Assembly: GCF_026625125.1 (NCBI RefSeq)
Contig: NZ_CP113097.1
Span: 372,001 to 436,000 of the forward strand
Length of the DNA: 64,000 bases
Direction: 5' to 3'
Source of the DNA: Pseudomonas putida
GTDB taxonomy: Bacteria; Pseudomonadota; Gammaproteobacteria; Pseudomonadales; Pseudomonadaceae
This document shows, piece after piece, positions 39,125 to 56,735 of the stretch. The notes below the pieces were generated by a model. The model was given only the letters and a program-made list of their open reading frames with translations. It was not told the DNA's origin and made no database searches. The position numbers were made by a program, and so were the translations under genes. The number at the start of each line of letters is the position of its first letter. Positions within the stretch are counted from its first letter, which is position 1.

Positions 39125-39571
39125 TCAGTTCACGCGCGCCAGGTCACCCTTGAGCGCCACACCCGCGATCACCGCGCCAGCATGGCACTCGTAGGTCGCA
39201 GCATCCTTGCGCTCGTTCTTCTTGTAGTAGCTGGCGATATTGGTCACCGCGTTGGCGTTCACCTTGCGCGCGGCGTCCTGCAGCGTCAGCAGGGCCGATT
39301 GCAACGCCCATTCGCAGGCCGCTTCGTCGCTTTTGTTGAAGGCATTGGTCTTCTTGTTGGTGACCGCGTTGGCGCTGATCACATTGACCTTGCCGCGTGG
39401 CTGTACGCCAGCCAGGTAGAACTTCACCGAGCCATCGAGCTTCTTCTCGTTGAGCATCTGCTGCACAACTTTCTCGAAGGGTAGGTACAGGGCGGTGTCA
39501 CGGGCCTGGCTGACGCCCGGCAGGGCGCAGAGCAGCAGGGCGGTGGCAGCGGTCCAGGTTTTCAGGCGCAT
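39125..39571 (-). CDS. Small exported protein of aryl polyene clusters (often mislabelled excinuclease subunit)
   Basis: A 148-residue protein with a signal peptide (LKTWTAATALLLCALPGVSQA) and two cysteines (CEWAL, YECHAG) that could form a disulfide. The mature sequence has KLDGSVKFYLAG, KTNAFNKSDEAACEWALQSAL and GANA-like VNANAVTNIASYYKKNE. Proteins like this recur at the end of aryl polyene operons and in databases often carry the erroneous name excinuclease ATPase subunit; there is no UvrA feature. Role unknown, presumably in the cell envelope. It follows the last ketosynthase by 35 bp. Confidence 0.7.
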   Translation of the reverse strand: MRLKTWTAATALLLCALPGVSQARDTALYLPFEKVVQQMLNEKKLDGSVKFYLAGVQPRGKVNVISANAVTNKKTNAFNKSDEAACEWALQSALLTLQDAARKVNANAVTNIASYYKKNERKDAATYECHAGAVIAGVALKGDLARVN

Positions 39572-39606
39572 CGGGTCTTCCTTGGTTTCAGTGGGGTTGG
39601 GTTGCG

Positions 39607-40833
39607 TCAGTGCCAGCGACGGAAGATCAACGAGGTGTTGACCCCGCCGAAGGCGAAGTTGTTGTTCATCACATATTGATGGTTCATGGCGCGGAACTCG
39701 CCGCGCAGGTAGTCCAGTTCACCGCAGCGCGGGTCGACATTATCGAGGTTGAGCGTGTGTACGTAGCGGTCGCTGTTGAGCATCTCGATGCTGAACCAGG
39801 ACTCCAATGCACCGCAGGCACCGAGGGTGTGGCCGAGGAAACTCTTTTGCGAGCTGATCGGCATACGCGGGCCGAACAGGCTGCTGGTGGCCAGCGTCTC
39901 GGCGATATCGCCCTGCTCTGTAGCGGTGCCGTGGCCGTTGACGTAGCCGATGGCCTCGGGCGGCAAGTTTGCGTCCTCCAACGCCAGCTCCATCGCGCGG
40001 CGCATGGTCAGCTGCTCAGGGCGGGTGGTGTGCTGGCCGTCGGCATTGCTGCCGAAACCGACGATTTCGGCGTGGATCTTCGCCCCACGGGCCAGGGCAT
40101 GTTCCAGTTCCTCCAGCACCAGCATGCCGCCGCCCTCGCCGATCACCAGGCCGTCGCGGCCGCTGTCGTAGGGGCGCGGGCTCAGGTGGGGTGTGTCGTT
40201 CTTCAGGCTGGTGGCGTACAGCGCGTCGAACACCATCGCCTCGGTCGGGCACAGCTCCTCGGCGCCGCCCGCGAGCATCAGCGGCAGGCGGCCGAACTTG
40301 ATCGCCTCGTAGGCGTAGCCAATGCCCTGACTGCCGCTGGTGCAGGCGCTGGAGGTGGGGATCAGGCGCCCAGTGAGGCCGAAGAAGATGCTGATGTTGG
40401 CGGCGGTGGTGTGCGGCATCATGCGCACATAGGAGTTGGCGTTCAGGCCATCAGCCACCGAGTTCAGCAGCATGTTGCCGAACGCCTTGATTTCGTCGGT
40501 GCTGCCGGTGGACGAACCGCAGGCCACGCCCATGCGCCCATCGCGGATGCTCGGGTCGCCGAGCAGCCCGGCATCCTCCAGGGCACGCTCGGCGGCAGCC
40601 ACTGCGAGGCGCGAAACCCGGCCCATGCTGCGCAGTTGTTTGCGGGTCCAGTGGCTTGGCACCTTGAAATCATCGATGGGGCCCGCCAGGCGTGTGTTCA
40701 ACTCCTCGAAACGGTCCCATTCGTCCATGCGGCGGATGCCGCTGCGCTGGTTGGCGAAATGCCCGCTGATGCTCGCCCAGTCGCTGCCCAGGGCGGTGAT
40801 CCCGGCCATGCCGGTGACGACGACGCGGCGCAT
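39607..40833 (-). CDS. Beta-ketoacyl-ACP synthase of the aryl polyene cluster (ApeR-like)
   Basis: A 408-residue FabF-type condensing enzyme with all three catalytic residues: Cys164 (SSACTSGSQG), His301 (NGHGTATEQGD) and His335 (FLGHTLGACGALE). In aryl polyene pathways a second ketosynthase of this kind acts beside the main elongating enzyme. The order of this gene, ketoreductase, dehydratase and other ketosynthase is the apeR-Q-P-O order of characterised clusters. GGGGGG 8 nt upstream favours ATG 40833, overlapping the ketoreductase stop by one base. Confidence 0.88.
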   Translation of the reverse strand: MRRVVVTGMAGITALGSDWASISGHFANQRSGIRRMDEWDRFEELNTRLAGPIDDFKVPSHWTRKQLRSMGRVSRLAVAAAERALEDAGLLGDPSIRDGRMGVACGSSTGSTDEIKAFGNMLLNSVADGLNANSYVRMMPHTTAANISIFFGLTGRLIPTSSACTSGSQGIGYAYEAIKFGRLPLMLAGGAEELCPTEAMVFDALYATSLKNDTPHLSPRPYDSGRDGLVIGEGGGMLVLEELEHALARGAKIHAEIVGFGSNADGQHTTRPEQLTMRRAMELALEDANLPPEAIGYVNGHGTATEQGDIAETLATSSLFGPRMPISSQKSFLGHTLGACGALESWFSIEMLNSDRYVHTLNLDNVDPRCGELDYLRGEFRAMNHQYVMNNNFAFGGVNTSLIFRRWH

Positions 40834-41561
40834 CAGCATAGCCCCCCGTTCACCGCCAGGACCTGGCGGGTGATGTACGCCGCCTCGGGCGACATCAGGA
40901 AATTCACCGCGCCGGCCACCTCGTCCGGTGTGCCCATGCGCCCGGCGGGGATCATCTTCAGCAGCTCGTCCACCGGCACGTGTTCGTCGAGCATGGCCGT
41001 GTCGATCAGCCCGGGGGCCACGCAATTGACGGTGATGCGTCGTTTGCCCAGTTCTATTGCCAGGGCCTTGGCGGCGCCGATCAGGCCCGCTTTGGAGGCG
41101 CTGTAGTTGACTTGGCCTCGGTTGCCGATCAGCCCCGACACCGAGGTGATACAGACGATGCGCCCCGGCGCGCGGCGGCGGATCATCGGCATGGTCAGTG
41201 GCTGCAGGACGTTGTAGAAGCCGTCGAGGTTGGTGCGCAACACCTGGTCCCAGTCTTCGTCTGTGAGCGCCGGGAAGGCGCCGTCGCGGGTCAGGCCGGC
41301 GTTGCAGACCACGCCGTAGTAGGCACCGAAGCGTTCCACGTCGCTTTCGAGAATGGCCCGGCAGGCAGCGCGATCGCTGATGTCGAACTGCAGCACCCGT
41401 ACCTGCTGGCCCAGCGCGCGGATTTCCTCGGCCACTGCATGGGCCTCGGCCAGGCCGCTGCGGCAGTGCAGCACCAGGTCGTAGCCGGCCCGGGCCAGGC
41501 GCAGGGCGATGGCGCGGCCGATGCCCCGGCTCGAGCCGGTGACCAGAATGGTATCAGTCAT
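40833..41561 (-). CDS. 3-ketoacyl-ACP reductase, FabG-type SDR (ApeQ-like)
   Basis: A 242-residue short-chain dehydrogenase that would reduce the beta-keto group after each chain extension. It has the nucleotide motif TGSSRGIG (residues 8-15), CNAG near 86-89, and the Ser140-Tyr153-Lys157 triad (ITSVSG and NYSASKAG), then the C-terminal VNGGLC. FabG-like sequence with NADPH preference is expected. Its ATG overlaps the dehydratase gene by 8 nt. Confidence 0.9.
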   Translation of the reverse strand: MTDTILVTGSSRGIGRAIALRLARAGYDLVLHCRSGLAEAHAVAEEIRALGQQVRVLQFDISDRAACRAILESDVERFGAYYGVVCNAGLTRDGAFPALTDEDWDQVLRTNLDGFYNVLQPLTMPMIRRRAPGRIVCITSVSGLIGNRGQVNYSASKAGLIGAAKALAIELGKRRITVNCVAPGLIDTAMLDEHVPVDELLKMIPAGRMGTPDEVAGAVNFLMSPEAAYITRQVLAVNGGLC

Positions 41562-42024
41562 GGGAAGGTTCCTCTGGGCGTGCTTCGGCCAGGTAGCTGG
41601 CCGCTTGGGGCGGGCGGTAGACGTTCAGGCGGGCACTGGCATGGATACCGGGGCCGCGCAGGTGGCATTCGAACACGCCCATGCCGTTCTCGTCTTCGAG
41701 CGAACGCAGGGCGTGGATGTGCAGTTCGGCGCCGGCCGGGAAGTGCTCGACATCACATTCGAACTTGCGCGTGCCGAGCAGAAAGCCCAGTTCCACCGGC
41801 TGACCCTTGCGCCGCGCCCGGCAACCGGCATAGGCCGCCACGCTCTGGGCCATCAGCTCGACGCCGAGCCAGGCCGGCAGGCTGCCATCGGCGCGGTTGA
41901 ACAGGCCGCCGGGGCGCACGGTAGCGCGGGTGTGGATCTGCTCGTCGTCGCAGCTGTCGACCTGGTCGATCAGAATCATGTCGCCGGCGTGGGGCAGCAG
42001 CTCGGCCAGTGGCCAGGGGATCAT
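41554..42024 (-). CDS. Hotdog-fold 3-hydroxyacyl-ACP dehydratase (ApeP-like)
   Basis: A 156-residue single hotdog domain. The predicted catalytic pair is His12 in LLPHAGDMILID and Glu56 in WLGVELMAQSVAAYAG, the same layout as ApeP-type dehydratases. It would remove water from the 3-hydroxyacyl chain to build conjugated double bonds, probably together with the hotdog domain fused to the AMP ligase upstream. ATG 42024 overlaps the preceding ketosynthase stop by 4 nt. Confidence 0.85.
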   Translation of the reverse strand: MIPWPLAELLPHAGDMILIDQVDSCDDEQIHTRATVRPGGLFNRADGSLPAWLGVELMAQSVAAYAGCRARRKGQPVELGFLLGTRKFECDVEHFPAGAELHIHALRSLEDENGMGVFECHLRGPGIHASARLNVYRPPQAASYLAEARPEEPSHD

Positions 42025-43214
42025 GGGGTGTCTCCGAGAATCAGGCTGACGTTGTTGCCGCCGAAGGCGAACGAGTTGCTCATCAAACGGCGTGGGCGTT
42101 GTGTGCCCATGCGCTGGCTGCCGTCGACCAAGGTCAGGGCCGGCAGTGCCGGGTCCTGTTGGCGGTCCCATACATGCGGCGGCAGCAACCCCTCGGGGTT
42201 GTGCCCGCTCAGGCTCAACCAGCAGAACGCCGCTTCCAGCGCGCCGGCGGCGCCAAGCGTGTGGCCGGTCATCGGTTTGCTCGACGAGCAGGGCAGCGTG
42301 GCGCCGAACAGCGTATGCACGGCCAGGCTTTCCATGGCGTCGTTATGCGCCGTGGCGGTGCCGTGCAAGTTCAGGTAATCGATCTGCGCGGGTGCAAGGC
42401 CGGCATTGTCCAGTGCTTTGCCCATGCACTGCAAGGCGCCAGTGCCGGTCGGGTCGGGGGCAGAGATGTGGTGGGCGTCGGAGCTGGCCCCGGCACCCAG
42501 CAATGCGATGTGACTGCCTGCGGCGTTGCCCTCGCGGGTCATCAGGAACAATGCCGCGGCCTCGCCGATGTTGATGCCGTTGCGGTTGACCGAGAACGGG
42601 TTGCAGCGCTGCTCGCTGATCGCCTCCAGGGCGCTGAAGCCATTGAGGGTCAGGCCGCACAGGCTGTCGACGCCGCCGCACAGCACCGCGTCGCACAGGC
42701 CCAGGTCGAGCAGGCGCCGGGCGCTGAGCAGGGCACGGCCACTGGAGGTGCAGGCGGTGGAAATCACGTAGGCCGGGCCGCTCAGCTGCAACCAGTCGGC
42801 GAGGAAGTTGGCCGGTGCGCTCAGCTCTTGCTCGGCGTAGCGGTAATTGGCAGGGAACTGCCCGCTTTGCAGGTACTGCGAAAAGCCTGCGCTGGCTTCG
42901 GCGATGCCAGAGGTGCTGGTGCCAAGGATCACCGCGACGCGGTGCGCGCCATACCGGGCGATGGCCTGGCGGATGGCCGGCTCGATCTGCAGGGCTGCGG
43001 TGTACAGCAACTGGTTGTTGCGGCTGTGCTGCTCGGGCAGCGGCACGGCGGGCAGGGCGCCGATGACCGCCCCGACCGGTGGCTGGCGCTCGGGGATCCA
43101 GCCCGCTGCCGGCTGCATGCCGGAGCAGTCGCCGGCGAACAGGCGCGCGGCCACTTCGGCCTGCCCTTGGCCAAGGGCGCAGACCAGGCCGAGGGCATTG
43201 AGGTAGGCGGTCAT
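42021..43214 (-). CDS. Beta-ketoacyl-ACP synthase (ApeO-like)
   Basis: A 397-residue condensing enzyme with Cys155 (STACTSSGRAL), His284 (LHGTATAHND) and His318 (MTGHTLGAAGALEAA), so it is predicted active. In studied aryl polyene systems ApeO is the elongating ketosynthase that pairs with the chain-length factor (here at 55896-56612). It overlaps the lipoprotein gene and the dehydratase gene by 4 nt each. Confidence 0.88.
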   Translation of the reverse strand: MTAYLNALGLVCALGQGQAEVAARLFAGDCSGMQPAAGWIPERQPPVGAVIGALPAVPLPEQHSRNNQLLYTAALQIEPAIRQAIARYGAHRVAVILGTSTSGIAEASAGFSQYLQSGQFPANYRYAEQELSAPANFLADWLQLSGPAYVISTACTSSGRALLSARRLLDLGLCDAVLCGGVDSLCGLTLNGFSALEAISEQRCNPFSVNRNGINIGEAAALFLMTREGNAAGSHIALLGAGASSDAHHISAPDPTGTGALQCMGKALDNAGLAPAQIDYLNLHGTATAHNDAMESLAVHTLFGATLPCSSSKPMTGHTLGAAGALEAAFCWLSLSGHNPEGLLPPHVWDRQQDPALPALTLVDGSQRMGTQRPRRLMSNSFAFGGNNVSLILGDTP

Positions 43215-43696
43215 GGGGTGTCCTCGCGGGGCAGAGGGTCGACTGAATAACGCAGGCCATCACCGAGGTTCAAGTCGAAAGCGTCGGCGGCGCGATAGCG
43301 GACCTGCCAGCGATCGCCCAGCCAGCGCCGCTCATTCTGCTGGCGCGCCTGCGGGTAAAGCTGCGGCAGTTGCTCGGCCGGGGTCAGGGCAAACAGCACG
43401 GCGGCGAACAGCTCGCGCGCGGCCGGGTTCGGCGGCAGCAGGCCATCGGCATGCCACTGCTGGCCATCGAGCAGCTGACGCGCCTGGGGAATGCCCAGCA
43501 GGTCGAGCAGCGACCAGCGCAGGTAGCCGTGCTCGCCCTGGATCACCAGCAGCCAGTCCTGGCGCTGGCCAGCCTGTTCACGTTCGACATGCAGCTGCTG
43601 CGGCAGTTGCAGCGCAGGCATGTGCGCCGGCAGCGGCGGGCGTGCGGCGCAGGCGCCGAGCAGCAGGCACAGGGCCAGGGCCAGCAGGTGCTTCAT
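43211..43696 (-). CDS. DUF3261 lipoprotein of the aryl polyene cluster
   Basis: A 161-residue protein with a lipoprotein signal: MKHLLALALCLLLGAC, lipobox LGAC with Cys16 as the lipidated residue. The mature part (LHVEREQAGQRQDWLLVIQ, LLDLLGIPQARQLLDG) fits the DUF3261 family found in aryl polyene operons, beside the MMPL exporter and LolA-like gene. It probably helps transport or place the polyene lipid at the outer membrane. ATGA overlaps join it to both neighbours. Confidence 0.82.
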   Translation of the reverse strand: MKHLLALALCLLLGACAARPPLPAHMPALQLPQQLHVEREQAGQRQDWLLVIQGEHGYLRWSLLDLLGIPQARQLLDGQQWHADGLLPPNPAARELFAAVLFALTPAEQLPQLYPQARQQNERRWLGDRWQVRYRAADAFDLNLGDGLRYSVDPLPREDTP

Positions 43697-44424
43697 GGCT
43701 GCTCCAGGGGCTTGCGCGCCACCACGTTGACCAGCGTCTCTTCGCGCTGGCCGACCGCAGGTGGCGTGCGCAGGCCCAGGCGTTCGAGCAGGCCGAAGTC
43801 CGTGGCGCGACTCCACCACAGGTAGGGATACGAGACGTTGCGCGGGCCGAACTGGAAGCCTTGCTGGCGCAGCATCTGCAAGTACCCCTCGGCGCTCTTT
43901 TGCACGTGCATGGGGTGGCGGAAGAACCAGCGGATCACCCAGGTATCGATGTAGGCTTCGGTGGACTCGGCGAACAGCAGGTAGCCGCCAGGCTTGAGCA
44001 CCCGGTAGAACTCGGCCAGGGCCTTTTCCTGCTCCACCAGATGGTGGAAGGTCTGGTGGCAGAACAGGATATCGACGCTGGCATCCGGGTACTGCAGGCG
44101 GGCGCAGTCGCTGCCGCGCAGCTCCACCTCAAGGCCCAGGCGGCGGGCCTCGGCGGCGCTCAGCTCAAGGCTGTGCGGGTCGGCATCGGTGCCCATCAGC
44201 TTTGCCGGGGCGAACACCTGTTGCAGGTGCTTGAACGACTTGCCCTGGCCGCAGCCGGCGTCGAGCAGCACCGGCGCCTGCGGCGGCTCACCGTCGAACA
44301 GTTGGCGCAGGTCATTGATCGCCACGCGCAGCACATGGTGCTGCCAGACGTGGCTGGCAAGGAAGCGGAAACCGATTCGGGTTTCTTCGACGTAGGTGTC
44401 GCTGAGGAACGGGCGCTGGTTCAT
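43693..44424 (-). CDS. SAM-dependent methyltransferase (class I)
   Basis: A 243-residue methyltransferase with motif I VLLDAGCGQGKSF near residue 52, an acidic residue after beta-2 (MGTDADPHSLELS), motif II DASVDILFCHQTFHHL and post-motif VLKPGGYLLFAEST. The UbiE-like fold and cluster context suggest O- or C-methylation of the aryl head group, which is a known aryl polyene decoration, but the target is inferred. ATG 44424 overlaps the flavoenzyme stop by 4 nt. Confidence 0.85.
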   Translation of the reverse strand: MNQRPFLSDTYVEETRIGFRFLASHVWQHHVLRVAINDLRQLFDGEPPQAPVLLDAGCGQGKSFKHLQQVFAPAKLMGTDADPHSLELSAAEARRLGLEVELRGSDCARLQYPDASVDILFCHQTFHHLVEQEKALAEFYRVLKPGGYLLFAESTEAYIDTWVIRWFFRHPMHVQKSAEGYLQMLRQQGFQFGPRNVSYPYLWWSRATDFGLLERLGLRTPPAVGQREETLVNVVARKPLEQP

Positions 44425-45668
44425 GCAGGGGCTCTCGCGCACAGCTCGGCCAGCGTGCGCAGGCGCCGCCTCGGCTCGGCGACGAAGGGGTTGCGGGCGT
44501 CCCAGGCGTAGCCGGCGAGGATCGAGCTGATCATGGCGCGGATCTCCGGCGAGCTGCCGGGGTGGTAGATGACGTCCTGGAAGCTGCCGTCGTACCAGCC
44601 TTCCACGTACACGCGGAAGGTATCGACGCCACGCTTGAGCGGTTCGGCGAACTCGCCCTGCCAGTCCACCGCCTCGCCTTGCAGTTGGCGGTGCAGCAGG
44701 CCGGCGGCCATGCTCGCCGAACGCATGGCGATGGTCACGCCCGAGGAGAACACCGGGTCGAGGAATTCGGCGGCGTTGCCGAGCAAGGCGTAGCCCTTGC
44801 CGTGCAGGGCCTTGACGTTGGCCGAGTAGCCACCGATGGTGCGCGCTGGGGTGTCCCACACCGCGTTGGCCAAGACCTTGGCCAAGCTTGGGGTCTGCGC
44901 CACGAAGTGCTTGAGGCAGGCATCCAGGTCCTTGGGCGCGGCGGCGAAGCGCTCGGCGGCGGCGACCACGCCCAGCGACGTGCGGCCATCGCTGAAGGGG
45001 ATGGTCCAGAACCAGATGTCGCGGTGCTGGGGGTGAGTGGTGATGAGGATCTTGTCGCGGTCGAAGCCTGGGTGGTCGATGCGGTCCTCGATGTGGGTGA
45101 ACACTGCCTGGCGCACAGGGAAGTTCGACGGTGCCTCGAGGTCGAGCAGGCGCGGCAGTACGCGGCCATAGCCGCTGGCGTCGAGCACGAACTGCGCCTG
45201 CACGTCGTATTCGCTGCCATCCGGGCGACGGGCGCGCACCTGCGGCCGTTCACCGCTCATGTCGGCGCTGACGATCTCGTGCTCGTAGCGGATTTCGACG
45301 CCCTGAGCCTCGGCCTGGTCGGCCAGCAGCTTGTCGAAGCGCCCGCGCTGCACCTGAAAGGTGCTCGGCTTGCCTTGGCTGAAGGTCTGGCCGAAATCGA
45401 AGGCGGTGTATTCCTCGCCCCAGGCGAAGGCTGCGCCGTTCTTGTGCTGGAAGCCGGCTGCTTGCAGGGCATCGAGCATGCCCGCTTCCTCGACGAAGTC
45501 GAGGCAGTGGGACAGCAGGCTTTCGCCGATGGAGAAACGTGGGAAACGCTGGCGTTCGATCACCAGCACGTCGTGGCCCTGGCGCTTGAGCAGCGCGGCG
45601 GCGATGGCGCCGGACGGGCCGGCACCGATCACCAGCACCTGGCGTTGTTGCAGTTCAATGTTCGGCAT
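44421..45668 (-). CDS. Flavin-dependent halogenase-like monooxygenase
   Basis: A 415-residue FAD enzyme of the tryptophan-halogenase-like family. It has the FAD motif VLVIGAGPSG (residues 11-20), the halogenase signature WxWxIP as W219-F-W221-T-I-P224, and Lys76 in FQHKNGAAF where halogenases keep the catalytic Lys. The C-terminal ALLGNAAEFLDPVFSSGV is the second FAD-binding region. It may halogenate or hydroxylate the aryl ring; xanthomonadins are brominated aryl polyenes. Plain hydroxylation or ring oxidation cannot be excluded. GGAG precedes ATG 45668. Confidence 0.82.
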   Translation of the reverse strand: MPNIELQQRQVLVIGAGPSGAIAAALLKRQGHDVLVIERQRFPRFSIGESLLSHCLDFVEEAGMLDALQAAGFQHKNGAAFAWGEEYTAFDFGQTFSQGKPSTFQVQRGRFDKLLADQAEAQGVEIRYEHEIVSADMSGERPQVRARRPDGSEYDVQAQFVLDASGYGRVLPRLLDLEAPSNFPVRQAVFTHIEDRIDHPGFDRDKILITTHPQHRDIWFWTIPFSDGRTSLGVVAAAERFAAAPKDLDACLKHFVAQTPSLAKVLANAVWDTPARTIGGYSANVKALHGKGYALLGNAAEFLDPVFSSGVTIAMRSASMAAGLLHRQLQGEAVDWQGEFAEPLKRGVDTFRVYVEGWYDGSFQDVIYHPGSSPEIRAMISSILAGYAWDARNPFVAEPRRRLRTLAELCARAPA

Positions 45669-45795
45669 GAGGGCTCCTTGCCATGGAAACGGAATTCGAA
45701 AGGATGTGTTGGGCCAGTGCGGCGACACGGCGCAGGCCGAGCACCCACAGGGCGAACAGACACAGGGCCATGGCCCAGAGCGAGAGCGGGGTCAT
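45655..45795 (-). CDS. 46-residue single-pass membrane peptide (small gene)
   Basis: A small frame fills the gap between the MMPL exporter and the flavoenzyme. Its ATG overlaps the exporter stop codon by 4 nt (ATGA), and its end overlaps the flavoenzyme by 14 nt, the same coupling used by the other genes here. The peptide starts MTPLSLWAMALCLFALWVLG, a strong membrane helix of about 20 residues, then LRRVAALAQH and a polar tail. I know of no family for it. Without it there would be an unexplained 123-bp gap in an otherwise gapless operon. Confidence 0.6.
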   Translation of the reverse strand: MTPLSLWAMALCLFALWVLGLRRVAALAQHILSNSVSMARSPHAEH

Positions 45796-48777: not shown

Positions 48778-49199
48778 GCCAGCACCTGCTGCACGGCGTC
48801 GAGCATCACCTGCGGCGAGGCCAACTGCATCTCGCCGCTGTCGATATGCACCGCGACCTGCACGGTGCTGGCCCGGGTCATGCGTTCGCCGGTCATGGCG
48901 TCGCTGATCAGGTAGTGGATCTTCAGGCGGTTTTCCCACTCCACCAGGCTGGCGCGCACGGTAAGGCGCTGGCCGAAGGTGGCGCCGCGGATGTAGCGCA
49001 GTTGCAGGTCGATCACCGGCCACGCGTAGCCGCTGGCCTGCATCTGCAGGTAGTTGTGGGCCAGGCGGTCGAGCAGGGCGCAGCGGGCCACCTCCAGGTA
49101 CTTCACGTAATGGCCGTGCCAGACGATGTGCATGATATCGACGTCGAAGAAGGGAACGACGATCTCGCTGTCGACATGGAAGACCCCGGGGTTACGCAT
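48774..49199 (-). CDS. 4-hydroxybenzoyl-CoA-type acyl thioesterase (ApeK-like)
   Basis: A 141-residue hotdog thioesterase. The 4HBT signature VPFFDVDIMHIVWHGHYVKY includes the catalytic-type Asp21, followed by the long helix YLEVARCALLDRL. It may release stalled or mis-primed chains from the carrier proteins, or hydrolyse the finished polyene. It overlaps the ammonia-lyase gene by 8 nt (ATGCGTAA). Confidence 0.85.
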   Translation of the reverse strand: MRNPGVFHVDSEIVVPFFDVDIMHIVWHGHYVKYLEVARCALLDRLAHNYLQMQASGYAWPVIDLQLRYIRGATFGQRLTVRASLVEWENRLKIHYLISDAMTGERMTRASTVQVAVHIDSGEMQLASPQVMLDAVQQVLA

Positions 49200-50736
49200 G
49201 CAACCTCCAGTGGCGCTGGGCGATACGCTGCAGACAGTGGCGCAGGTCGCTTTCCAGGGCGCGGTCTTCGATGACTGGAGCGAAGTCCGCCAGCAGTGCT
49301 TCGTGCATGTGCGCCAGGGCTGGCGGCAGTGGCCGTGCGTCGGCCTGGCGGCTGCGCAGCCAGACACCTTGGTTGGCGGCCAGCAGCGAGGCGGCGGCAA
49401 CCTGTTCGGTCAGCTCCAGCACCCGCAGGGCATCGCGTGCGGCGATGGTGCCCATGCTCACTTTGTCCTGGTTGTGGCACTCGGTGGAGCGCGAGAACAC
49501 GCTGGCCGGCATGGTCTGCTTCAGGGCCTCTGCAGTCCAGGCGCTGGCGCCGATCTGCACGGCCTTGAAACCGTGGTTGATCATCGCTCGCTCGGCGTCG
49601 GCGCCGGAAAGGTTGCTCGGCAGGCCGTGGTTGTAGCGCACGTCCACCAGCAGCGCCAGCTGGCGGTCGAGCAGGTCGGCGACGTTGGCCACCAGGGTTT
49701 TCAGGCTGTCCATGGCAAACGCGATATGCCCGCCATAGAAGTGCCCGCCGTGCAGCACACGCTCAGCGTCGCCATCGATGATCGGGTTGTCGTTGGCGCT
49801 GTTCAGTTCGGTTTCGATGAACCCGCGCAACCACCCCAGGCTGTCGGCCAGCACGCCGAGCACATGCGGGGCGCAGCGCAGCGAGTAGCGGTCCTGCAGG
49901 CGGTGCAGTGGTGGCAGCGGCGCGTCGATGGCCAGGTCCTGGCGCAGCCAGGCGGCGACCTGGGTCTGGCCGGGGTGCGGCTTGGCGGCGAACAGGCGTT
50001 CGTCGAAGTGCTCCGGGTTGCCCTGCAGGCCGATCACATTGAGCGCGGTGATGCGCGTGGCCAACTGCAGCAAGTAATCGGCACGGGCATAGGCCAGGCA
50101 GGCCAGGCCGGTCATGACCGCGGTGCCGTTCATCAGCGCCAAGGCTTCCTTGGGGCGCAGTACCAGCGGTTGCCAGCCCAGCTCGCGGTGCACATCGGCA
50201 CTGCTGCGGCGCTGGCCCTGGTACATCACCTCACGCTCGCCGGACAGGGTCGCTGCCACGTACGACAAGGGTGTCAGGTCCCCGCTGGCGCCCACCGAGC
50301 CTTCCTCGGGGATCAGCGGCAGGATGTCGTGGGCGAGAAAGTCGCGCAGGCGCTCGAGCAGTTCCAGGCGAACACCGGAAACGCCGTGGCTCAGCGAACG
50401 CAGGCGGGCGGCCAGCACCGCGCGGGTGGCGGGGGCGTCGAGCAGCTTGCCCAGCCCGCAGCCATGGAACGTGTACAGATGCTGTGGCAGGGCCTCCACG
50501 TGTTCCAGCGGCACGGCCACCACGCAGGAGTCGCCGTAGCCGGTGGTGACGCCGTAGATCACCCCTTCCTTGTCGAGCAGGGTGTCGAGAAAGCGCGCAC
50601 CGCGGGCGATGCGTTCACGGTAGGCAGCGTCGTTCTGCAGCGCTACCTGCGCGCGGTGCTCGGCCAGGGCCAGGACATCTTCGATTGCCAGCGGCGATTC
50701 GCCGAAGGTGACAGGCTCATGCGGATGCATCGTCAT
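49192..50736 (-). CDS. MIO-type aromatic amino acid ammonia-lyase (HAL/TAL family)
   Basis: A 514-residue ammonia-lyase. The MIO cofactor forms from Ala150-Ser151-Gly152 in GSVGASGDLTPLSY, and the catalytic Tyr61 lies in GVIYGVTTGYGDS. The residues that set substrate choice are Phe90-His91 (LYTFHGCGLG), unlike the Ser-His of true histidine lyase. No hut genes are near, so it most likely makes cinnamate or coumarate as aryl starter. I chose ATG 50736 behind GGAAG; ATG 50730 is also possible. Substrate is inference. Confidence 0.85.
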   Translation of the reverse strand: MTMHPHEPVTFGESPLAIEDVLALAEHRAQVALQNDAAYRERIARGARFLDTLLDKEGVIYGVTTGYGDSCVVAVPLEHVEALPQHLYTFHGCGLGKLLDAPATRAVLAARLRSLSHGVSGVRLELLERLRDFLAHDILPLIPEEGSVGASGDLTPLSYVAATLSGEREVMYQGQRRSSADVHRELGWQPLVLRPKEALALMNGTAVMTGLACLAYARADYLLQLATRITALNVIGLQGNPEHFDERLFAAKPHPGQTQVAAWLRQDLAIDAPLPPLHRLQDRYSLRCAPHVLGVLADSLGWLRGFIETELNSANDNPIIDGDAERVLHGGHFYGGHIAFAMDSLKTLVANVADLLDRQLALLVDVRYNHGLPSNLSGADAERAMINHGFKAVQIGASAWTAEALKQTMPASVFSRSTECHNQDKVSMGTIAARDALRVLELTEQVAAASLLAANQGVWLRSRQADARPLPPALAHMHEALLADFAPVIEDRALESDLRHCLQRIAQRHWRLHA

Positions 50737-51655
50737 CGGTCTTCCAGAAAGGGTAGAAATTGAACCACTGCAATGGCGCCTGGACGCAGTAGTGCCCCAG
50801 GCGTGCGGCATAGCGCGTGGCCCACTCGGCGATCACTTGGTCACGCTGGCCGCGCCGCCATTGCAGGCGTTCGGCGAAGGGTTCGAGGGTGATGTGGTAG
50901 CGGCCCTGGTGCTTGAGGCAGAACAGCAGGTTGAGCGGGCATTCGAGCATGCCGGCGAGTAGCCAGGGGCCTTGCGGGAAGGCCGCCGGGTGGCCGAGAA
51001 AATCCACCTCGACGGTGCGTGCGCCGTGCAAGGGCACGCGGTCGCCGGCGATCGCCAGCCACTCGCCGCGCTCCAGTCGCTCGGACAGCTGCAGCATCAC
51101 CGCCGGGTCCAGCTCGCTGACCTGAATCAGCCGCAGGTTGGTGGCACCCGCCTCGCCGAGCAGGCGGTTGAAGCGCTCGGCATGGCGGGTGTGCACCAGC
51201 ACGTTCATGGTCACCTGTTCGCCAATCTCGGCCAGGGCCCGGCACACTTCGAGGTTGCCCAAATGCGCACCGACCAGCATCTGCCCGCGTGCACCGCGCA
51301 GTTGCTGGCGCAGGTTGGCGGGGTCGTGGATCTCGATGTCCTCGATGCGCAGCTTGCCGTTCCACACATCGAGCTTGTCCAACAGTGCCTCGGCAAACGC
51401 CATGAACTGGCGAAACACCTGCCAATGGTTGGGCGCAGCGGTTTGCCCGGCGTTCCATTGATGCAGCCGCTGTTGGTACTGGCGGGCGCTGCGCCGGGCG
51501 CGGCGGCCAAACAGGAAGAAGTAGGCGACGATGAGGTGGATCAGCGGGCTGAGTACGCGGCGCCCGAGCAGGCGCACCAGGGTCGCGGTCAGCTTCATCA
51601 ACCAGAAGCTGCCCCGTTCCTGGTGCTCGGCCCAGTGTTGTGGCTGTTCGCTCAT
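50717..51655 (-). CDS. LpxL/HtrB-like acyltransferase
   Basis: A 312-residue lysophospholipid/lipid A-type acyltransferase: one N-terminal membrane segment (SPLIHLIVAYFFLFG, about residues 34-48) and the HX4E active-site motif in VGAHLGNLEVCRAL, then GDRVPLHGARTVEVDFLG and GPWLLAGMLECP. In E. coli-type clusters a glycosyltransferase and an acyltransferase of this type occur in one protein (ApeJ); here they are adjacent separate genes with an ATGA overlap. It probably helps attach the polyene to its lipid anchor. Confidence 0.83.
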   Translation of the reverse strand: MSEQPQHWAEHQERGSFWLMKLTATLVRLLGRRVLSPLIHLIVAYFFLFGRRARRSARQYQQRLHQWNAGQTAAPNHWQVFRQFMAFAEALLDKLDVWNGKLRIEDIEIHDPANLRQQLRGARGQMLVGAHLGNLEVCRALAEIGEQVTMNVLVHTRHAERFNRLLGEAGATNLRLIQVSELDPAVMLQLSERLERGEWLAIAGDRVPLHGARTVEVDFLGHPAAFPQGPWLLAGMLECPLNLLFCLKHQGRYHITLEPFAERLQWRRGQRDQVIAEWATRYAARLGHYCVQAPLQWFNFYPFWKTDDDASA

Positions 51656-52386
51656 GCGCGCCACCTGCGCCAGAGTATCAGCGGTGCGCGCAGCAACATG
51701 CCGAAGAACAGCTTGGCGTGCATCTTCGAGATCAGCGCATTGTCGTGGAACAGGCGAAAGTGCGAGAGACCGTCCTGTGGGTAGTGCACGCGGGTCGGCA
51801 GCCACTTCATGGGCTGGTTGCGCCAGGCCAGGCGCACCAGAATCTCCGGGTCGAAATCCATGCGTTTGCCCAACTTGACGCTGTCGATCATCGCCAGGGT
51901 CGCCGGCAGCGGGTATACCCGAAAGCCGCACATGGAGTCAGGTATCTGCAGCGACAGGCTGTTGATCCACACCCACACGTGGGTCAGGTAGCGGGCGTAC
52001 AGGCGGCCCTTGGGCACGCTGGCATCGTACTGTGGATAACCGCACACCAGCGCCTGTGGATAAGCTTGCGACTGCTCGACGAAGCGGCCGACATCGGCGA
52101 GATCGTGCTGACCGTCGGCGTCCACTTGCAGGGCATGGCTGAAACCGAGCCGTGCGGCTTCGCGCAGGCCGGCCATGACTGCGCCGCCCTTGCCCTGGTT
52201 GACCGCCAGGGTCACCAGGTGCACGTCAGGCTGGCCAGCCAGGCGCCCCAGCACCTGGGCGCAGGGCGCGTAGCTGGCGTCATCTACCAGCACGCAGGGA
52301 AGGCCTGCGCGCAGCAGGTCGGCGACCACGGCCGGCACTGCCTGCTCGTGGTTGTACACCGGGATCACCGCACAGGGCTTATGCAC
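51652..52386 (-). CDS. Family 2 glycosyltransferase
   Basis: A 244-residue GT2 enzyme with the nucleotide-sugar fold: AVIPVYNHEQAVPAVV, the first acidic motif CVLVDDAS, QGKGGAVMAGLREA, and the metal motif QVDADGQHDL. Dolichol-phosphate-mannose-synthase-like in length, with no clear membrane helices. It would add a sugar to the lipid anchor or polyene. Start is GTG 52386, overlapping the AMP ligase gene by 8 nt; it overlaps the acyltransferase gene by 4 nt. Confidence 0.85.
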   Translation of the reverse strand: MHKPCAVIPVYNHEQAVPAVVADLLRAGLPCVLVDDASYAPCAQVLGRLAGQPDVHLVTLAVNQGKGGAVMAGLREAARLGFSHALQVDADGQHDLADVGRFVEQSQAYPQALVCGYPQYDASVPKGRLYARYLTHVWVWINSLSLQIPDSMCGFRVYPLPATLAMIDSVKLGKRMDFDPEILVRLAWRNQPMKWLPTRVHYPQDGLSHFRLFHDNALISKMHAKLFFGMLLRAPLILWRRWRA

Positions 52387-54058
52387 AGACGGCCTCCAGC
52401 AGAATACGGCCACTGGAGCAGGGCAACCCAGCGCAGGTGAAGGTGAAGTACAGCTTGCCGCGCGCGCTGTCCCAGCGCAGGGTCAGCGCCAGTTCATCGC
52501 CTGGGCGCACCAACTGCTGGAACTTGAGCACTTCCATGCCGCTGAAGCGCCGCTCGCAATCGAGCAGTTCGCCGCCAAGGTCGATGGCCCAGTCGATCTG
52601 GACCACGCCCGGCAATACCGGGGTCTGCGGGAAGTGCCCGGGGAAACACGCCAGGTCCAGCGGCACGGCCAGGCGCAGGTGCAGTTCGTCGCCCTCGCGG
52701 CGCTGTTCCAGCACCTCGGGCGCCAGGCTGCGCTGGGCCAGCAGCAGGGCCTGCAAGTTGGCCTGGGGCAGCTTGCCCTGGCTGTTCAGCGGCAGGCGGC
52801 GCAGCAACCGCCAACGGCGTGGCAGGGCCAGCGCTTCGCAGTGGCTGGCCAGGTGCGTGCGCAGGCCGTCGACCAGCGCCCGACGGCCAAGGTTGCGCAA
52901 TGTGTGCAGGCCGGCCGGGCTTGGCACCAGCAGCGCGCCAAGGAAGGCGCGGCCTTCCTCGATCATGCCCAGGCGCGCTTCGGCGACCCACGGGTGGCTG
53001 CACAGGGCCTGTTCGAGCATCGGCAGGGAGATACGCTTTTCTTCTAGCTTGACGATACGGTCCAGGCGCCCGAGCAGGCGGAAGCGCCCGCCTTCGACGA
53101 ACTCGACGGCATCGGCGCTCTGCTCGACATGGCCGGCCGGCAAGTAGCTGGAGGCGATGCGCAAGGCTCCTTGCTCATCCTGGCTCAGTTGCACATCGGC
53201 GAACGGGCTCCACAGCTCTTCGCCCTGGCGCCAGGCGATGCCGCCGGTTTCCGAGCTGCCGAGGATTTCCGCCGGCCACTGGCCCAGGCGCTGGTGCAGG
53301 CGCTCGCCAGCCTCCGCCGGCAGTTCGCCGCCGGACGAAAACACCTGGCGCACCGGGCGCAGGGCCGGCCAGTCGAGGTTGTCGCCCATGCGCTTGAGGA
53401 GCGCCGGGCTGGCCACCCAGGCAAACGCCGGGTGTTCGCGGCTGGCACGTTGCAGGTCTTCGGGGAAGGGTAGCGGGCGGCGCTCGAAGCCACGCCCGGC
53501 GCACAGGGGCCAGAGCACGCGGAACAGCAGCCCATAGATGTGCTGGGTGGCGACGCTGCCGATGATCCACGCATCGCCCAAGGTGCTGCCCCAGAGTCGT
53601 TCCAGGGCGGTCACTTCGTTGGCCAGTTGGCGCAGCTGCTTGTCGATGCGCTTGGGCTCGCCGCTGGAGCCGGAGGTGCAGAGGCTGATCCGGCACTGCG
53701 CCAGATCCAGGTCGGCAGGTTCCAGGGCGTTGCCCAGCAAGGCCTCCAGCGTGGCATCGCCTGGCTGATCGCTGAGCCACAAGTCGACCTGGGCATTCCA
53801 GCGCTCGCGGGTTGCCGGTTGCAGGTCGGCGGGCAGCAGCACCTCGACCCCGGCACGCCAGGCGCCCAGCAGTGCGGCCGCCAGTTGCGCGGCGTCTTCC
53901 AGATGCACTGCCAGGCGTTTGACCCCACGCTGGCGCAGGCCACCGGCCAACTGCAGGGCCTGCCGGCACAGTGCGGCGTGGTCCAGGGCCGGCGCCTGGG
54001 TCACCTGGCGCGGCGCTTCCAGCGGGCGCAGCAGGTGTTCGAGGTTGATCCAGTTCAT
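52379..54058 (-). CDS. AMP-dependent acyl ligase fused to a FabZ-like dehydratase (ApeH-ApeI type)
   Basis: A 559-residue two-part protein. Residues 1-445 are an acyl-adenylating ligase: P-loop LCTSGSSGEPKRIDKQ, GSSETGGIAWR, and the hinge LLGRLDRIVKLEEKRIS. Residues about 460-559 are a hotdog dehydratase with CFPGHFPQTPVLPGVVQ (His475). The ligase would load the aryl acid onto a carrier protein, and the dehydratase would act during elongation. In Xenorhabdus/E. coli clusters these are separate apeH and apeI genes. ATGA overlap with the next membrane protein gene. Confidence 0.87.
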   Translation of the reverse strand: MNWINLEHLLRPLEAPRQVTQAPALDHAALCRQALQLAGGLRQRGVKRLAVHLEDAAQLAAALLGAWRAGVEVLLPADLQPATRERWNAQVDLWLSDQPGDATLEALLGNALEPADLDLAQCRISLCTSGSSGEPKRIDKQLRQLANEVTALERLWGSTLGDAWIIGSVATQHIYGLLFRVLWPLCAGRGFERRPLPFPEDLQRASREHPAFAWVASPALLKRMGDNLDWPALRPVRQVFSSGGELPAEAGERLHQRLGQWPAEILGSSETGGIAWRQGEELWSPFADVQLSQDEQGALRIASSYLPAGHVEQSADAVEFVEGGRFRLLGRLDRIVKLEEKRISLPMLEQALCSHPWVAEARLGMIEEGRAFLGALLVPSPAGLHTLRNLGRRALVDGLRTHLASHCEALALPRRWRLLRRLPLNSQGKLPQANLQALLLAQRSLAPEVLEQRREGDELHLRLAVPLDLACFPGHFPQTPVLPGVVQIDWAIDLGGELLDCERRFSGMEVLKFQQLVRPGDELALTLRWDSARGKLYFTFTCAGLPCSSGRILLEAVCA

Positions 54059-54600
54059 GAGCGTCCTCGCACACGTTGTCTTATCAGCCATTCGATGGCG
54101 AACAGCAGGCCCATCGCGGCATAGGCGATCACGCCGTTGTACAGGGTCCACCAGCGCAGTGGCGCCCACAGCGTGAGGCTGGCGGCGATCAGGCCGTTGC
54201 ACAGAAAGAACAGGCTCCACGCCTCGGTCACCCGGCGCGTGTAGCGCACGGCCCGGGGTGGCAGTTCAGGGTCACGCAGGCGCGCCAGGCGCTCGGCCAT
54301 GGGCATGCCGTGCAGCAGGGTGCTGCCGAACAGGGCGAGCATGAAGGCGCTGATCAGCACCGGGTACCAGCGCAGCAGTTGCTGGCTGTCGGACAGCCCC
54401 AGCACGCCACAGAATGCCAGCGCCGCCAGCGCCATCCACAGGCTGCCCGGGCGGCGCGGCGCGCTCAGGGCGCGGGCCAGCCAGAGGGCGCCAAGCAGCA
54501 GGCCGAATTGCCAGGGGGCGAAATGGGCCATGCCGAAATGCACGGCAAACGGATACAGCAGGCCGGCCAACAGCAGACCGAGGCCGATCAGGCGTTTCAT
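54055..54600 (-). CDS. COG4648-type membrane protein of the aryl polyene cluster (ApeG-like)
   Basis: A 181-residue integral membrane protein with about six hydrophobic segments (IGLGLLLAGLLYPFAVHF, LLLGALWLARAL, WMALAALAFCGVLGL, VLISAFMLALFGS, FLCNGLIAASLTLW, GVIAYAAMGLLFAIEWL). This uncharacterised family is a steady member of aryl polyene operons between the carrier proteins and the ligase. Function unknown; it could anchor the synthase complex. Joined to both neighbours by ATGA overlaps. Confidence 0.83.
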   Translation of the reverse strand: MKRLIGLGLLLAGLLYPFAVHFGMAHFAPWQFGLLLGALWLARALSAPRRPGSLWMALAALAFCGVLGLSDSQQLLRWYPVLISAFMLALFGSTLLHGMPMAERLARLRDPELPPRAVRYTRRVTEAWSLFFLCNGLIAASLTLWAPLRWWTLYNGVIAYAAMGLLFAIEWLIRQRVRGRS

Positions 54601-54851
54601 GCCGCCGGGTTTACCAGGCGGAACACGGCCTCGACCACGTCATTGACGGTACGTACCGACTTGAAATCGTCAGCGGCGATCTTCTTGCCGGTCTGGCGCT
54701 TGATGTGGTCGATCAGGTCGACGGCGTCGATGCTGTCGATTTCCAGGTCCTGGTACAGGTTGGATTGCAGAGAGATGCTGGCCGGCTCCAGTTCGAACAG
54801 TTCGACCAGAGCGTCGCGCAGGATGTTGAAGATGTCTTCGCGGGTTTGCAT
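54597..54851 (-). CDS. Acyl carrier protein (ApeF-like)
   Basis: An 84-residue carrier protein with the phosphopantetheine Ser40 in QDLEIDSIDAVDLIDHI. Acidic and helical throughout. Aryl polyene systems use two carriers, one for the aryl starter and one for chain elongation; which role this one has cannot be told from sequence alone. It follows the other carrier by 9 bp and overlaps the membrane protein gene by 4 nt. Confidence 0.92.
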   Translation of the reverse strand: MQTREDIFNILRDALVELFELEPASISLQSNLYQDLEIDSIDAVDLIDHIKRQTGKKIAADDFKSVRTVNDVVEAVFRLVNPAA

Positions 54852-54860
54852 GGTACGTTC

Positions 54861-55133
54861 TCAGGCGGCCTGACGGGCGGTGACGAATGCCGCCAGCGTG
54901 GCGACGTTGCTGAAGTGGTTGCGGGTGTCCTTGGCATCGGCGTCGATCTTGAAGCCGTAGCGCTTCTGGATCGCCAGGCCGAGTTCCAGTGCGTCTACCG
55001 AGTCCAGGCCCAGGCCTTCGCCGAACAGGGGTTGTTCATCGTCGATGTCCTGAACGCTGATGTCTTCCAGGCCCAGGGCGTCGATGATCAGCTGTTTGAG
55101 GTCACGGTTCAGGTCTTGCTGTGGCACGCTCAT
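54861..55133 (-). CDS. Acyl carrier protein (ApeE-like)
   Basis: A 90-residue carrier protein with the phosphopantetheine Ser45 in GEGLGLDSVDALELGLAIQ. The helix II region is longer than in the neighbouring carrier and has KRYGFKID after it. ATG 55133 lies within the end of the acyltransferase gene (32-nt overlap), which is consistent with coupling. Confidence 0.92.
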   Translation of the reverse strand: MSVPQQDLNRDLKQLIIDALGLEDISVQDIDDEQPLFGEGLGLDSVDALELGLAIQKRYGFKIDADAKDTRNHFSNVATLAAFVTARQAA

Positions 55134-55920
55134 TGGCGGCGAGCTCCTTGATGAAGTAGTGGTGCAGATGGTCGTTGAGCAGCCGCGATGCCTTGGGGGC
55201 GGGGCCCAGGGCGGCGAAGGCCTGAGGATCGATATCGGCGCCGACCTTGAGGGTAAAGTGCACGCGGCGGCTGGGAATGCGGTACCAGGGTTCATTCTTG
55301 GTCAGCGTGGTGGGGCTGACCTGGATGGTCACCGGGGTGATGATCTTCGCACCGCGCAGGGCGATTGCGGCGGCGCCACGATGAAAGGCCGGCGCCTGGC
55401 CGGGGGAGGTGCGCGTGCCTTCGGGGAAGATCACCAGTGGCTGGCCCTGGCGCAGCGACTCCACGGCGGTGTCGAGCATGTCCAGGCTGCCGTCGTTGCC
55501 GATGTACTGGGCTTCGCTGACCGGACCGCGGGTGAATGGGTTGTCGAACAGGCTCTGCTTGACCACGCAGTTGGCCTGACGCACCAGGCCAATGAGGAAC
55601 ACCACGTCGATCAGCGACGGGTGGTTGGCGATGATCATCTGCCCCGGACGGCCGAGGCGCTCGGCGCCGTCGATCTGGTAAGTCAGCACGCCGGTGGCGT
55701 GCATGAACCGCACGAAACGCCAGAACAGCCAACTGATGGTGCGCCGCGCGCGCCGGCGATGGCGTTCGGCACCGCCTGGCAGGCAGGCCAGCAGCGGAAA
55801 GACCAGCAGGCGCAGGCACAAACCGCCCAGGCCGAACAGAAAGAAGCTCGCGGCGGTGGCCAGCAGACGCCAATAGTAAGCGTCGCGTGGCCGGCTCACG
55901 GCTGTCGTTGCCAGTTCCAT
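55102..55920 (-). CDS. 1-acyl-glycerol-3-phosphate-type acyltransferase (PlsC fold, ApeD-like)
   Basis: A 272-residue membrane-associated acyltransferase. It has a hydrophobic N-terminal region (LLATAASFFLFGLGGLCLRL and LLVFPLLACLPG), the HX4D motif in IIANHPSLIDVVFLIG, and the second motif VIFPEGTRTSPG. It probably acylates the glycerol or sugar anchor of the polyene lipid. The start is either ATG 55920 (GGAA upstream, 25-nt overlap with the chain-length factor) or GTG 55899 (4-nt overlap). Confidence 0.85.
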   Translation of the reverse strand: MELATTAVSRPRDAYYWRLLATAASFFLFGLGGLCLRLLVFPLLACLPGGAERHRRRARRTISWLFWRFVRFMHATGVLTYQIDGAERLGRPGQMIIANHPSLIDVVFLIGLVRQANCVVKQSLFDNPFTRGPVSEAQYIGNDGSLDMLDTAVESLRQGQPLVIFPEGTRTSPGQAPAFHRGAAAIALRGAKIITPVTIQVSPTTLTKNEPWYRIPSRRVHFTLKVGADIDPQAFAALGPAPKASRLLNDHLHHYFIKELAANERATARPEP

Positions 55921-56612
55921 GTACGACGATTCCAGGTGTGAGTGAAGGAAGTGCAGCCAGTCAGCATGGCTTTGAGCCAGCTGAGGCCGTGAGGCAATTC
56001 CACGGGAGGTGTTGCCAACGCCTGCCCGGGCGCGAGTTGCCATTGCTGGCCAGGGGTCAGCAGCAGGCCCAGGGCGTAGGCGAAGGGCACGTCGTCGATC
56101 CAAGGGCTGTAGGCCTCGGGGGGCAGTTCCTCGGTGACGATCAACAGCACGGCGGGTGCACCCTCTGCCAGCAGTGCCGCCGCCTCCAGCACGCCTTGCT
56201 CGAAGCCGTCGCCCGCGGCCGCCAGGGCGGTCATTTCGCTGGTCGAGCCGCGCAGGATCGACCACAGGCCGATGACCGCGTTGTGCACCGACAGGCTGAA
56301 CTGGGTGGGCGACAGCGGCTGGCGTGCGGCCAGCTCGCTGAGAATCGAAAAGGTGCGGGGCGTTTCACCGTGGCGCGATACGAACACCAGTGGCAACTGC
56401 TCGTGGCCCTCGGCCAATGGCCAACCCACGGCAAAGGCCATGCGCGCCAGGTGGCTGAGGCGACGGCGTTGCATGGCGGGCAGGAAGCTCACGTCAGGCG
56501 CCTGCGCATCGCTGCGTGGCGGCTGATGGCCATTTGCCCATAATTGCCAGTCGGCGTGTGTCGAGAGGCCAGGGGCCCACGCGCGCCATTGGCTGATGTC
56601 GAAGGTGATCAC
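55896..56612 (-). CDS. Beta-ketoacyl synthase chain-length factor (ApeC-like, no active-site Cys)
   Basis: A protein of about 238 residues from the truncated ketosynthase-like family (Ketoacyl-synt_2). It starts ITFDISQWRAWAPGL and has FSLSVHNAVIGLWSI where active synthases have the nucleophile Cys, so it cannot condense. It should pair with the ApeO-like ketosynthase and set chain length. The frame is open to ATG 56690, but the promoter at 56707-56735 would start the mRNA near 56700, leaving no room for a binding site there; GTG 56612 with GGGAAA upstream matches family N termini. Confidence 0.83.
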   Translation of the reverse strand: MITFDISQWRAWAPGLSTHADWQLWANGHQPPRSDAQAPDVSFLPAMQRRRLSHLARMAFAVGWPLAEGHEQLPLVFVSRHGETPRTFSILSELAARQPLSPTQFSLSVHNAVIGLWSILRGSTSEMTALAAAGDGFEQGVLEAAALLAEGAPAVLLIVTEELPPEAYSPWIDDVPFAYALGLLLTPGQQWQLAPGQALATPPVELPHGLSWLKAMLTGCTSFTHTWNRRTWNWQRQP

Positions 56613-56706
56613 GGTGCTTTGTTTCCCGCCCTGAGGGACTTCCATGCCGAGGGAATGACTCGGCGTAACGACCTGCCAGGGTTGGCGCATTCATCGAGTG
56701 GCGCGC

Positions 56707-56735
56707 ATTATCCCGGTGCCGGGGTCATGTATCAA
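56707..56735 (-). promoter_or_regulatory. Promoter of the aryl polyene operon
   Basis: On the minus strand TTGATA (56735-56730) and GATAAT (56712-56707) are exactly 17 bp apart, a near-consensus sigma70 pair. The predicted transcript start is close to 56700. No other strong promoter was seen inside the operon. The rest of the gap up to the ParA gene at 56925 shows no further clear signal. Confidence 0.65.

Follow-up and report, generated by a model that had tools for sequence, protein, structure and literature searches.

Gene content and organization of the locus

The 64-kb window of Pseudomonas putida DNA analyzed here (the whole stretch, 64,000 nucleotides) carries 20 complete genes and one 46-codon open reading frame (ORF) on its minus strand, at positions 39125-56690. 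Transcription runs from 56690 to 39125, beginning with a chain-length factor and ending with a 148-residue protein; 18 of the 20 junctions among the 21 ORFs overlap, and all 20 genes are open frames. With high confidence we assign this locus to the Aliivibrio fischeri (APE_Vf) type of aryl polyene operon; it is complete and probably functional, and has the form that Pseudomonas usually carries. Gene set, gene order, catalytic residues and conservation were seen directly, and the scheme of elongation and transport is taken from the literature on Escherichia coli, Xenorhabdus and Acinetobacter. ORFs and family scans confirm the original prediction, made from the sequence by an earlier reader, that an operon with all core aryl polyene functions lies here, and show a full type II polyketide synthase (PKS) system. 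That prediction counted 21 genes, of which 20 are complete; the 21st, a small membrane peptide in that account, most likely corresponds to the 46-codon ORF (45655..45795).

Both ketosynthase triads are intact. The ApeO-like ketosynthase (42021..43214; family scans) has the triad C155/H284/H318, exactly as predicted, and 6qsp_A is its best structure match. The ApeR-like ketosynthase (39607..40839; family scans and residue alignment) has C166/H303/H337, equivalent to the predicted C164/H301/H335 if its start is placed two residues later. The ApeC-like partner (55896..56690) was identified as a chain-length factor by family scan (PF13723). It is not literally Cys-less, as had been claimed: the 264-residue protein has one Cys, at position 246. 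Its sequence can be aligned with both 6qsp_B and 7f28_A, which we take to be solved ApeC chains, the PDB names being silent on this; because the 6qsp_B alignment begins only at residue 28, the true start may lie inside the ORF. The best structure match of the ApeO-like/ApeC-like pair is to the two chains of 6qsp, followed by 7f28, presumably the Xenorhabdus and Acinetobacter pairs, respectively. ApeO/ApeC structures from both genera exist (PMC8358021).

Family scans also recovered the predicted ApeQ-like ketoreductase (40833..41561; FabG2, FabG-like), the two dehydratase domains, one in an ApeP-like protein (41554..42024; PF22817) and one ApeI-like and fused to an ApeH-like adenosine monophosphate (AMP) ligase (52379..54058; PF22818 and PF00501), the ApeF-like and ApeE-like acyl carrier proteins (54597..54851 and 54861..55133) and the ApeL-like LolA protein (48103..48777). 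The ApeM-like MMPL/RND exporter (45792..48119) is a weaker case: PF03176 (E 0.0033) and HpnN (1.7e-8) both score below their cut-offs, and the assignment draws on these profiles, on position and on an annotated E. coli counterpart with 29% identity. The locus therefore holds what marks an aryl polyene cluster, namely an ApeO-type ketosynthase with its ApeC partner, a second ketosynthase, a ketoreductase, two dehydratases, acyl carrier proteins and an aryl ligase, together with acyltransferases and LolA/RND export, the exporter profile being below cut-off.

Around this core lie an ApeD-like lysophospholipid (AGPAT-type) acyltransferase (55102..55920; family scan, homology), an ApeG-like membrane protein (54055..54600) with 46% identity to its E. 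coli CFT073 counterpart, a family 2 glycosyltransferase (GT2; 51652..52413, start uncertain) and an LpxL-type acyltransferase (50717..51655), the last two identified by family scan and matching the N-terminal and C-terminal parts, respectively, of one fused E. coli gene. They are followed by an aromatic amino acid ammonia-lyase (49192..50736; Lyase_aromatic, from family scans and residues) and an ApeK-like thioesterase (48774..49199; 4HBT, from family scans and homology). Downstream of the exporter and the 46-codon ORF are a halogenase-like flavoenzyme (44421..45668; Trp_halogenase-like), an S-adenosylmethionine-dependent methyltransferase (43693..44424; Methyltransf_11, from family scans) and a putative ApeN-like lipoprotein (43211..43696), whose DUF3261 match is below cut-off (PF11659, E 0.021) and whose position is that seen in E. 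coli, Pseudoalteromonas and Acinetobacter. The terminal 148-residue protein (39125..39571) matches no Pfam or NCBIfam family at E 0.001, and is homologous to a small 'excinuclease'-annotated protein that lies close to where Pseudoalteromonas and Acinetobacter clusters finish (43-51% identity in stretches L114-L117).

Conservation of the operon across Pseudomonas

A lyase orthologue (E <= 1e-150) was detected in 236 of the 298 sampled genomes of the genus, and a lyase relative (E <= 1e-90) in 16 of 369 genomes sampled from the class, the window's own genome being included in both counts. For comparison of whole loci we took the best 80 of 590 confirmed stretches found by the lyase. These are closest relatives, some of the same species, all titled Pseudomonas except one Stutzerimonas, and with species repeated, again by title (three P. 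costantinii, five P. viridiflava). Seven were shorter than 21,500 bases and were dropped, leaving 73, in which the presence of a gene denotes a tblastn match, with the intactness of each gene unchecked.

Seventeen genes, all but those of the flavoenzyme, the methyltransferase and the 148-residue protein, were found in 73 of 73 loci, in one order and on one strand. The lyase served to retrieve these loci, so its presence in all of them is no evidence of conservation; the genus figure is. The flavoenzyme was found in 70 and the methyltransferase in 64 of the 73, and the 148-residue gene in 5, a count that does not measure presence because most loci stop short of this gene. The description of the enzyme set as unusual thus does not survive: the same set and order are usual in the loci compared. 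The operon is of an already known kind, and most sampled Pseudomonas carry it. In P. viridiflava, 177 arylpolyene clusters have been reported from 225 genomes (PMC13387001).

Relationship to known aryl polyene systems

Of the 20 window proteins, 15 find a counterpart, in the same order, in APE_Ec, the cluster of E. coli CFT073 (c1186-c1204). That cluster has no match for the lyase, the flavoenzyme, the methyltransferase or the 148-residue gene; the DUF3261 gene is also unmatched by BLAST, but an annotated DUF3261 gene stands in its place. Fusions differ between the two, the ligase and ApeI-like dehydratase being joined in the window and separate in E. coli and Pseudoalteromonas, whereas the glycosyltransferase and acyltransferase are joined in E. 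coli and separate in the window. Instead of a Methyltransf_11-type enzyme, CFT073 possesses ApeB, whose closest family is FlxJ, although its score of 470 bits falls short of the FlxJ cut-off (560). The claim that an ammonia-lyase, a flavoenzyme and a methyltransferase are added to the E. coli set is therefore partly right: the first two and this methyltransferase family are absent from CFT073, but E. coli has a methyltransferase gene of its own. The APE_Ec sub-type, with its FlxJ-like ApeB and no ammonia-lyase, does not describe the window, which combines an ammonia-lyase and an acyltransferase with the PKS genes, as APE_Vf clusters do in PMC8719888.

The layout recurs in other bacterial families. 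Two Pseudoalteromonas records and an A. baumannii record (L114-L116) have the gene order of the window: the lyase lies between the acyltransferase and the thioesterase, the flavoenzyme between the exporter and the DUF3261 protein, and a homologue of the 148-residue protein after the last ketosynthase. These records differ in that no methyltransferase of the window family was found in the stretches examined, and Pseudoalteromonas has a MipA gene before the 148-residue homologue. Caballeronia insecticola has both the flavoenzyme (54%) and the methyltransferase (62%), located beyond the ketosynthase genes. Among 15 other class-sample genomes with a lyase match, the flavoenzyme family was found within the stretch in eight (one at the very edge, on the other strand, at 35%) and in none of the remaining seven, some stretches being cut at contig ends; the methyltransferase was found in two of the 15 (47% and 30%).

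The original prediction saw in the locus a mixture of xanthomonadin, flexirubin and aryl polyene features. Xanthomonadin and arcuflavin clusters do share a halogenase gene with the window, and arcuflavin also has LolA, acyltransferase, glycosyltransferase, methyltransferase and Na/H antiporter genes (PMC3949708, PMC3691225), but both take their starter from a XanB2-type chorismatase rather than from a lyase, and arcuflavin is joined to a dialkylresorcinol. Flexirubin, from Bacteroidetes, resembles the window in using a tyrosine ammonia-lyase and a 4-coumarate-CoA ligase as starter enzymes (PMC3992019), and differs in that its polyene is esterified to a dialkylresorcinol. No XanB2 chorismatase or dialkylresorcinol gene was found in the operon, where all 20 proteins either fall into a different family or have no family match. 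We reject a novel xanthomonadin/flexirubin/aryl polyene hybrid because gene-by-gene orthology of the set holds throughout the Pseudomonas loci compared and its order is common to other families; the lyase and the flavoenzyme occupy the same slots in Pseudoalteromonas and Acinetobacter, and lyase-bearing Pseudomonas clusters are filed under APE_Vf. This removes a false lead. The proposal of a new structural variant loses its support as well, since the supposed extra enzymes are routine in the Pseudomonas sub-type; a structural variant of the aryl polyene product is possible.

The published filing refers to APE_Vf of Aliivibrio fischeri ES114 (MIBiG BGC0000837). Pseudomonas aryl polyene clusters are defined by this entry together with an ammonia lyase and an acyltransferase in PMC8719888, and a Pseudomonas cluster with an ammonia lyase is filed there at approximately 40% similarity in PMC5851621. 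A P. baetica cluster is placed at 40% similarity (PMC5909648), and gene similarities of 40-45% are given for P. baetica and three Pseudoalteromonas (PMC5909648, PMC6581688). Several points weigh against an APE_Vf-type operon with a tyrosine-derived starter. The assignment was made through this filing rather than by comparison with the ES114 sequence, Pseudomonas clusters reach a similarity to APE_Vf of no more than some 40% (antiSMASH or gene similarity), and literature searches, mostly at listing level, found no Pseudomonas aryl polyene cluster with a solved product. Moreover, the profile scan of the lyase does not place it in a curated tyrosine ammonia-lyase family: it is below the curated cut-off of each family that it matches (BagA/FevW 409 of 1000, FlxA 311 of 700 and hutH 385 of 539 bits), tyrosine- and histidine-lyase families alike, so these scores do not single out a substrate.

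Predicted pathway and starter unit

We propose a pathway whose elongation and export steps follow the scheme described for E. coli and Xenorhabdus (PMC8253772). The ammonia-lyase would generate an aryl acrylate as starter, with tyrosine-derived 4-coumarate as the likeliest candidate, and the ligase would load this starter onto a carrier protein. Chain extension with malonyl units would then fall to the ApeO-ApeC pair and to ApeR, the ketoreductase and the two dehydratases leaving a conjugated polyene. The methyltransferase and the flavoenzyme may decorate the aryl head, and the acyltransferases and glycosyltransferase may attach the polyene to a lipid anchor. The MMPL, LolA and ApeN-like proteins would carry the product to the outer membrane, where it would act as an antioxidant, carotenoid-like pigment.

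The ASG triad of the lyase (A150-S151-G152) is invariant in 127 of 127 aligned rows, among which many genomes are entered twice (L084-L098 and L099-L113 are the same genomes). At F90-H91, which we take to be the site of lyase selectivity, F is present in 118 and H in all 127 rows, a pattern that does not decide between substrates. The lyase most likely converts tyrosine to 4-coumarate, by analogy with the flexirubin lyase FlxA, for which tyrosine ammonia-lyase activity and a role in initiating the polyene have been described (PMC3992019). If the starter were instead 4-hydroxybenzoate, the lyase would be an accessory that does not supply it. In E. coli, 4-hydroxybenzoate is the predicted starter, and Xenorhabdus ApeH loads this compound in vitro (PMC8253772); the Acinetobacter structure paper likewise takes 4-hydroxybenzoyl as the head group (PMC8358021), though the A. 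baumannii record has an in-cluster lyase. Both the placement of the lyase inside the operon, with its triad kept in every aligned row, and the FlxA precedent argue against this alternative, which we regard as unlikely. Two more adjacent aromatic-lyase genes, presumably for histidine use, lie outside the window in the same genome (G000:C1:483338-486254).

The flavoenzyme and the methyltransferase

The flavoenzyme contains GxGxxG, K76, WFWTIP and FLDPVFSSG, which correspond to what we assume to be the flavin-dependent halogenase motifs (GxGxxG, a catalytic Lys, WxWxIP and FxxPxxSxG). These are invariant in 98 of 98 aligned rows; the rows of this and the lyase alignment hold some genomes twice (L001 and L120 look the same). 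Among solved structures the closest relative is 3nix, which bears no more specific name than flavoprotein/dehydrogenase; the next-best are halogenases. From its sequence, halogenation of the aryl head by this enzyme is possible. The methyltransferase is of another kind than E. coli ApeB, which does not match it, and no FlxJ-type methyltransferase was matched in the genome carrying the window.

The retained halogenase hallmarks, the halogenases among the solved relatives and the distinct methyltransferase raise the prospect of a product that differs from APE_Vf, namely an aryl polyene halogenated and/or methylated by these two enzymes. However, flavoenzyme orthologues also sit in aryl polyene clusters of other bacterial families, and sequence motifs cannot tell a halogenase from related monooxygenases. 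We consider such a product conceivable but doubtful. The literature passages cited here contain no mention that we found of the flavoenzyme or a Methyltransf_11-type methyltransferase in Pseudomonas clusters. A protein search with the Acinetobacter flavoenzyme gave no name beyond Acinetobacter/Moraxellaceae among the 120 best matches listed, and for that reason did not reach Vibrio.

A variable block and the probable remnant of an antiporter-like gene

Between the exporter and the flavoenzyme, 46 of the 73 full-length loci carry a gene of approximately 385 codons, whose relatives are mostly named sodium:proton antiporter by NCBI, some being hypothetical proteins or bearing other names; the protein has no Pfam, NCBIfam or PDB match. 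The 12 next-best lyase genomes yielded near-full-length matches in eight cases. Only 46 codons are left in the window, and the same holds for another genome of the species. The remaining ORF begins on the exporter stop and ends in the flavoenzyme start, as the full-length gene does. Compared with the 385-codon gene of L119, its first 67 bases score 32 at one end of that gene and its last 43 bases score 37 at the other, whereas 300 single-base shuffles reached no more than 15 and 12, respectively. Scores against L124 are 29 and 25 (shuffle maxima 18 and 14), whereas L120 gives a match at the 3' end alone (25, shuffle maximum 13), the 5' score of 9 being within the shuffle range. The 3' match includes approximately 14 bases of the flavoenzyme gene, which would be expected to be conserved in any case.

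We therefore reject the small membrane peptide as a new part of the operon, the ends of the ORF matching those of the L119 gene above shuffles; judged from these alignments, the ORF is most likely the vestige of a decayed transporter-like gene. Such a loss, shared with the other genome of the species, could signal that the whole operon is a decaying copy in which pigment production has been lost, but 27 of the 73 loci have no antiporter match and yet have the 17 core genes, and the 20 window genes are open frames. We consider wholesale decay very improbable, and an operon that probably works remains our reading.

The states of the antiporter-like, flavoenzyme and methyltransferase genes vary among the 73 loci: 40 have all three, 23 lack the antiporter and 6 lack the methyltransferase, with rarer cases of none (two loci), the flavoenzyme alone (one) and the methyltransferase alone (one). 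Variation in this block, set against an otherwise fixed operon, is a small matter but one that can be tested. Perhaps the Pseudomonas form of the cluster makes a halogenated, methylated aryl polyene and the block serves as a switchable decoration cassette, a speculative suggestion that we think improbable on present evidence. If true, otherwise identical operons of sister species would make differently decorated pigments. The block states among close relatives offer a natural series for linking each gene with a change in pigment mass.

In the P. taiwanensis and P. vranovensis loci (L002, L007) all three genes of the block are unmatched and the remaining genes are present; this is so in P. taiwanensis even though its lyase shares 95% identity with that of the window. 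The antiporter-like gene is repeatedly absent (the window, L121, L033, L049, L063), with short leftovers that differ between Pseudomonas lineages: L121 has a different shortened remnant, and some other relatives keep a few codons or nothing clear. The Na/H antiporter listed for arcuflavin is a lead only with regard to this gene. Finally, three P. costantinii contigs (L070, L071, L072) each carry a lyase locus, reflecting either triplication or a matter of assembly.

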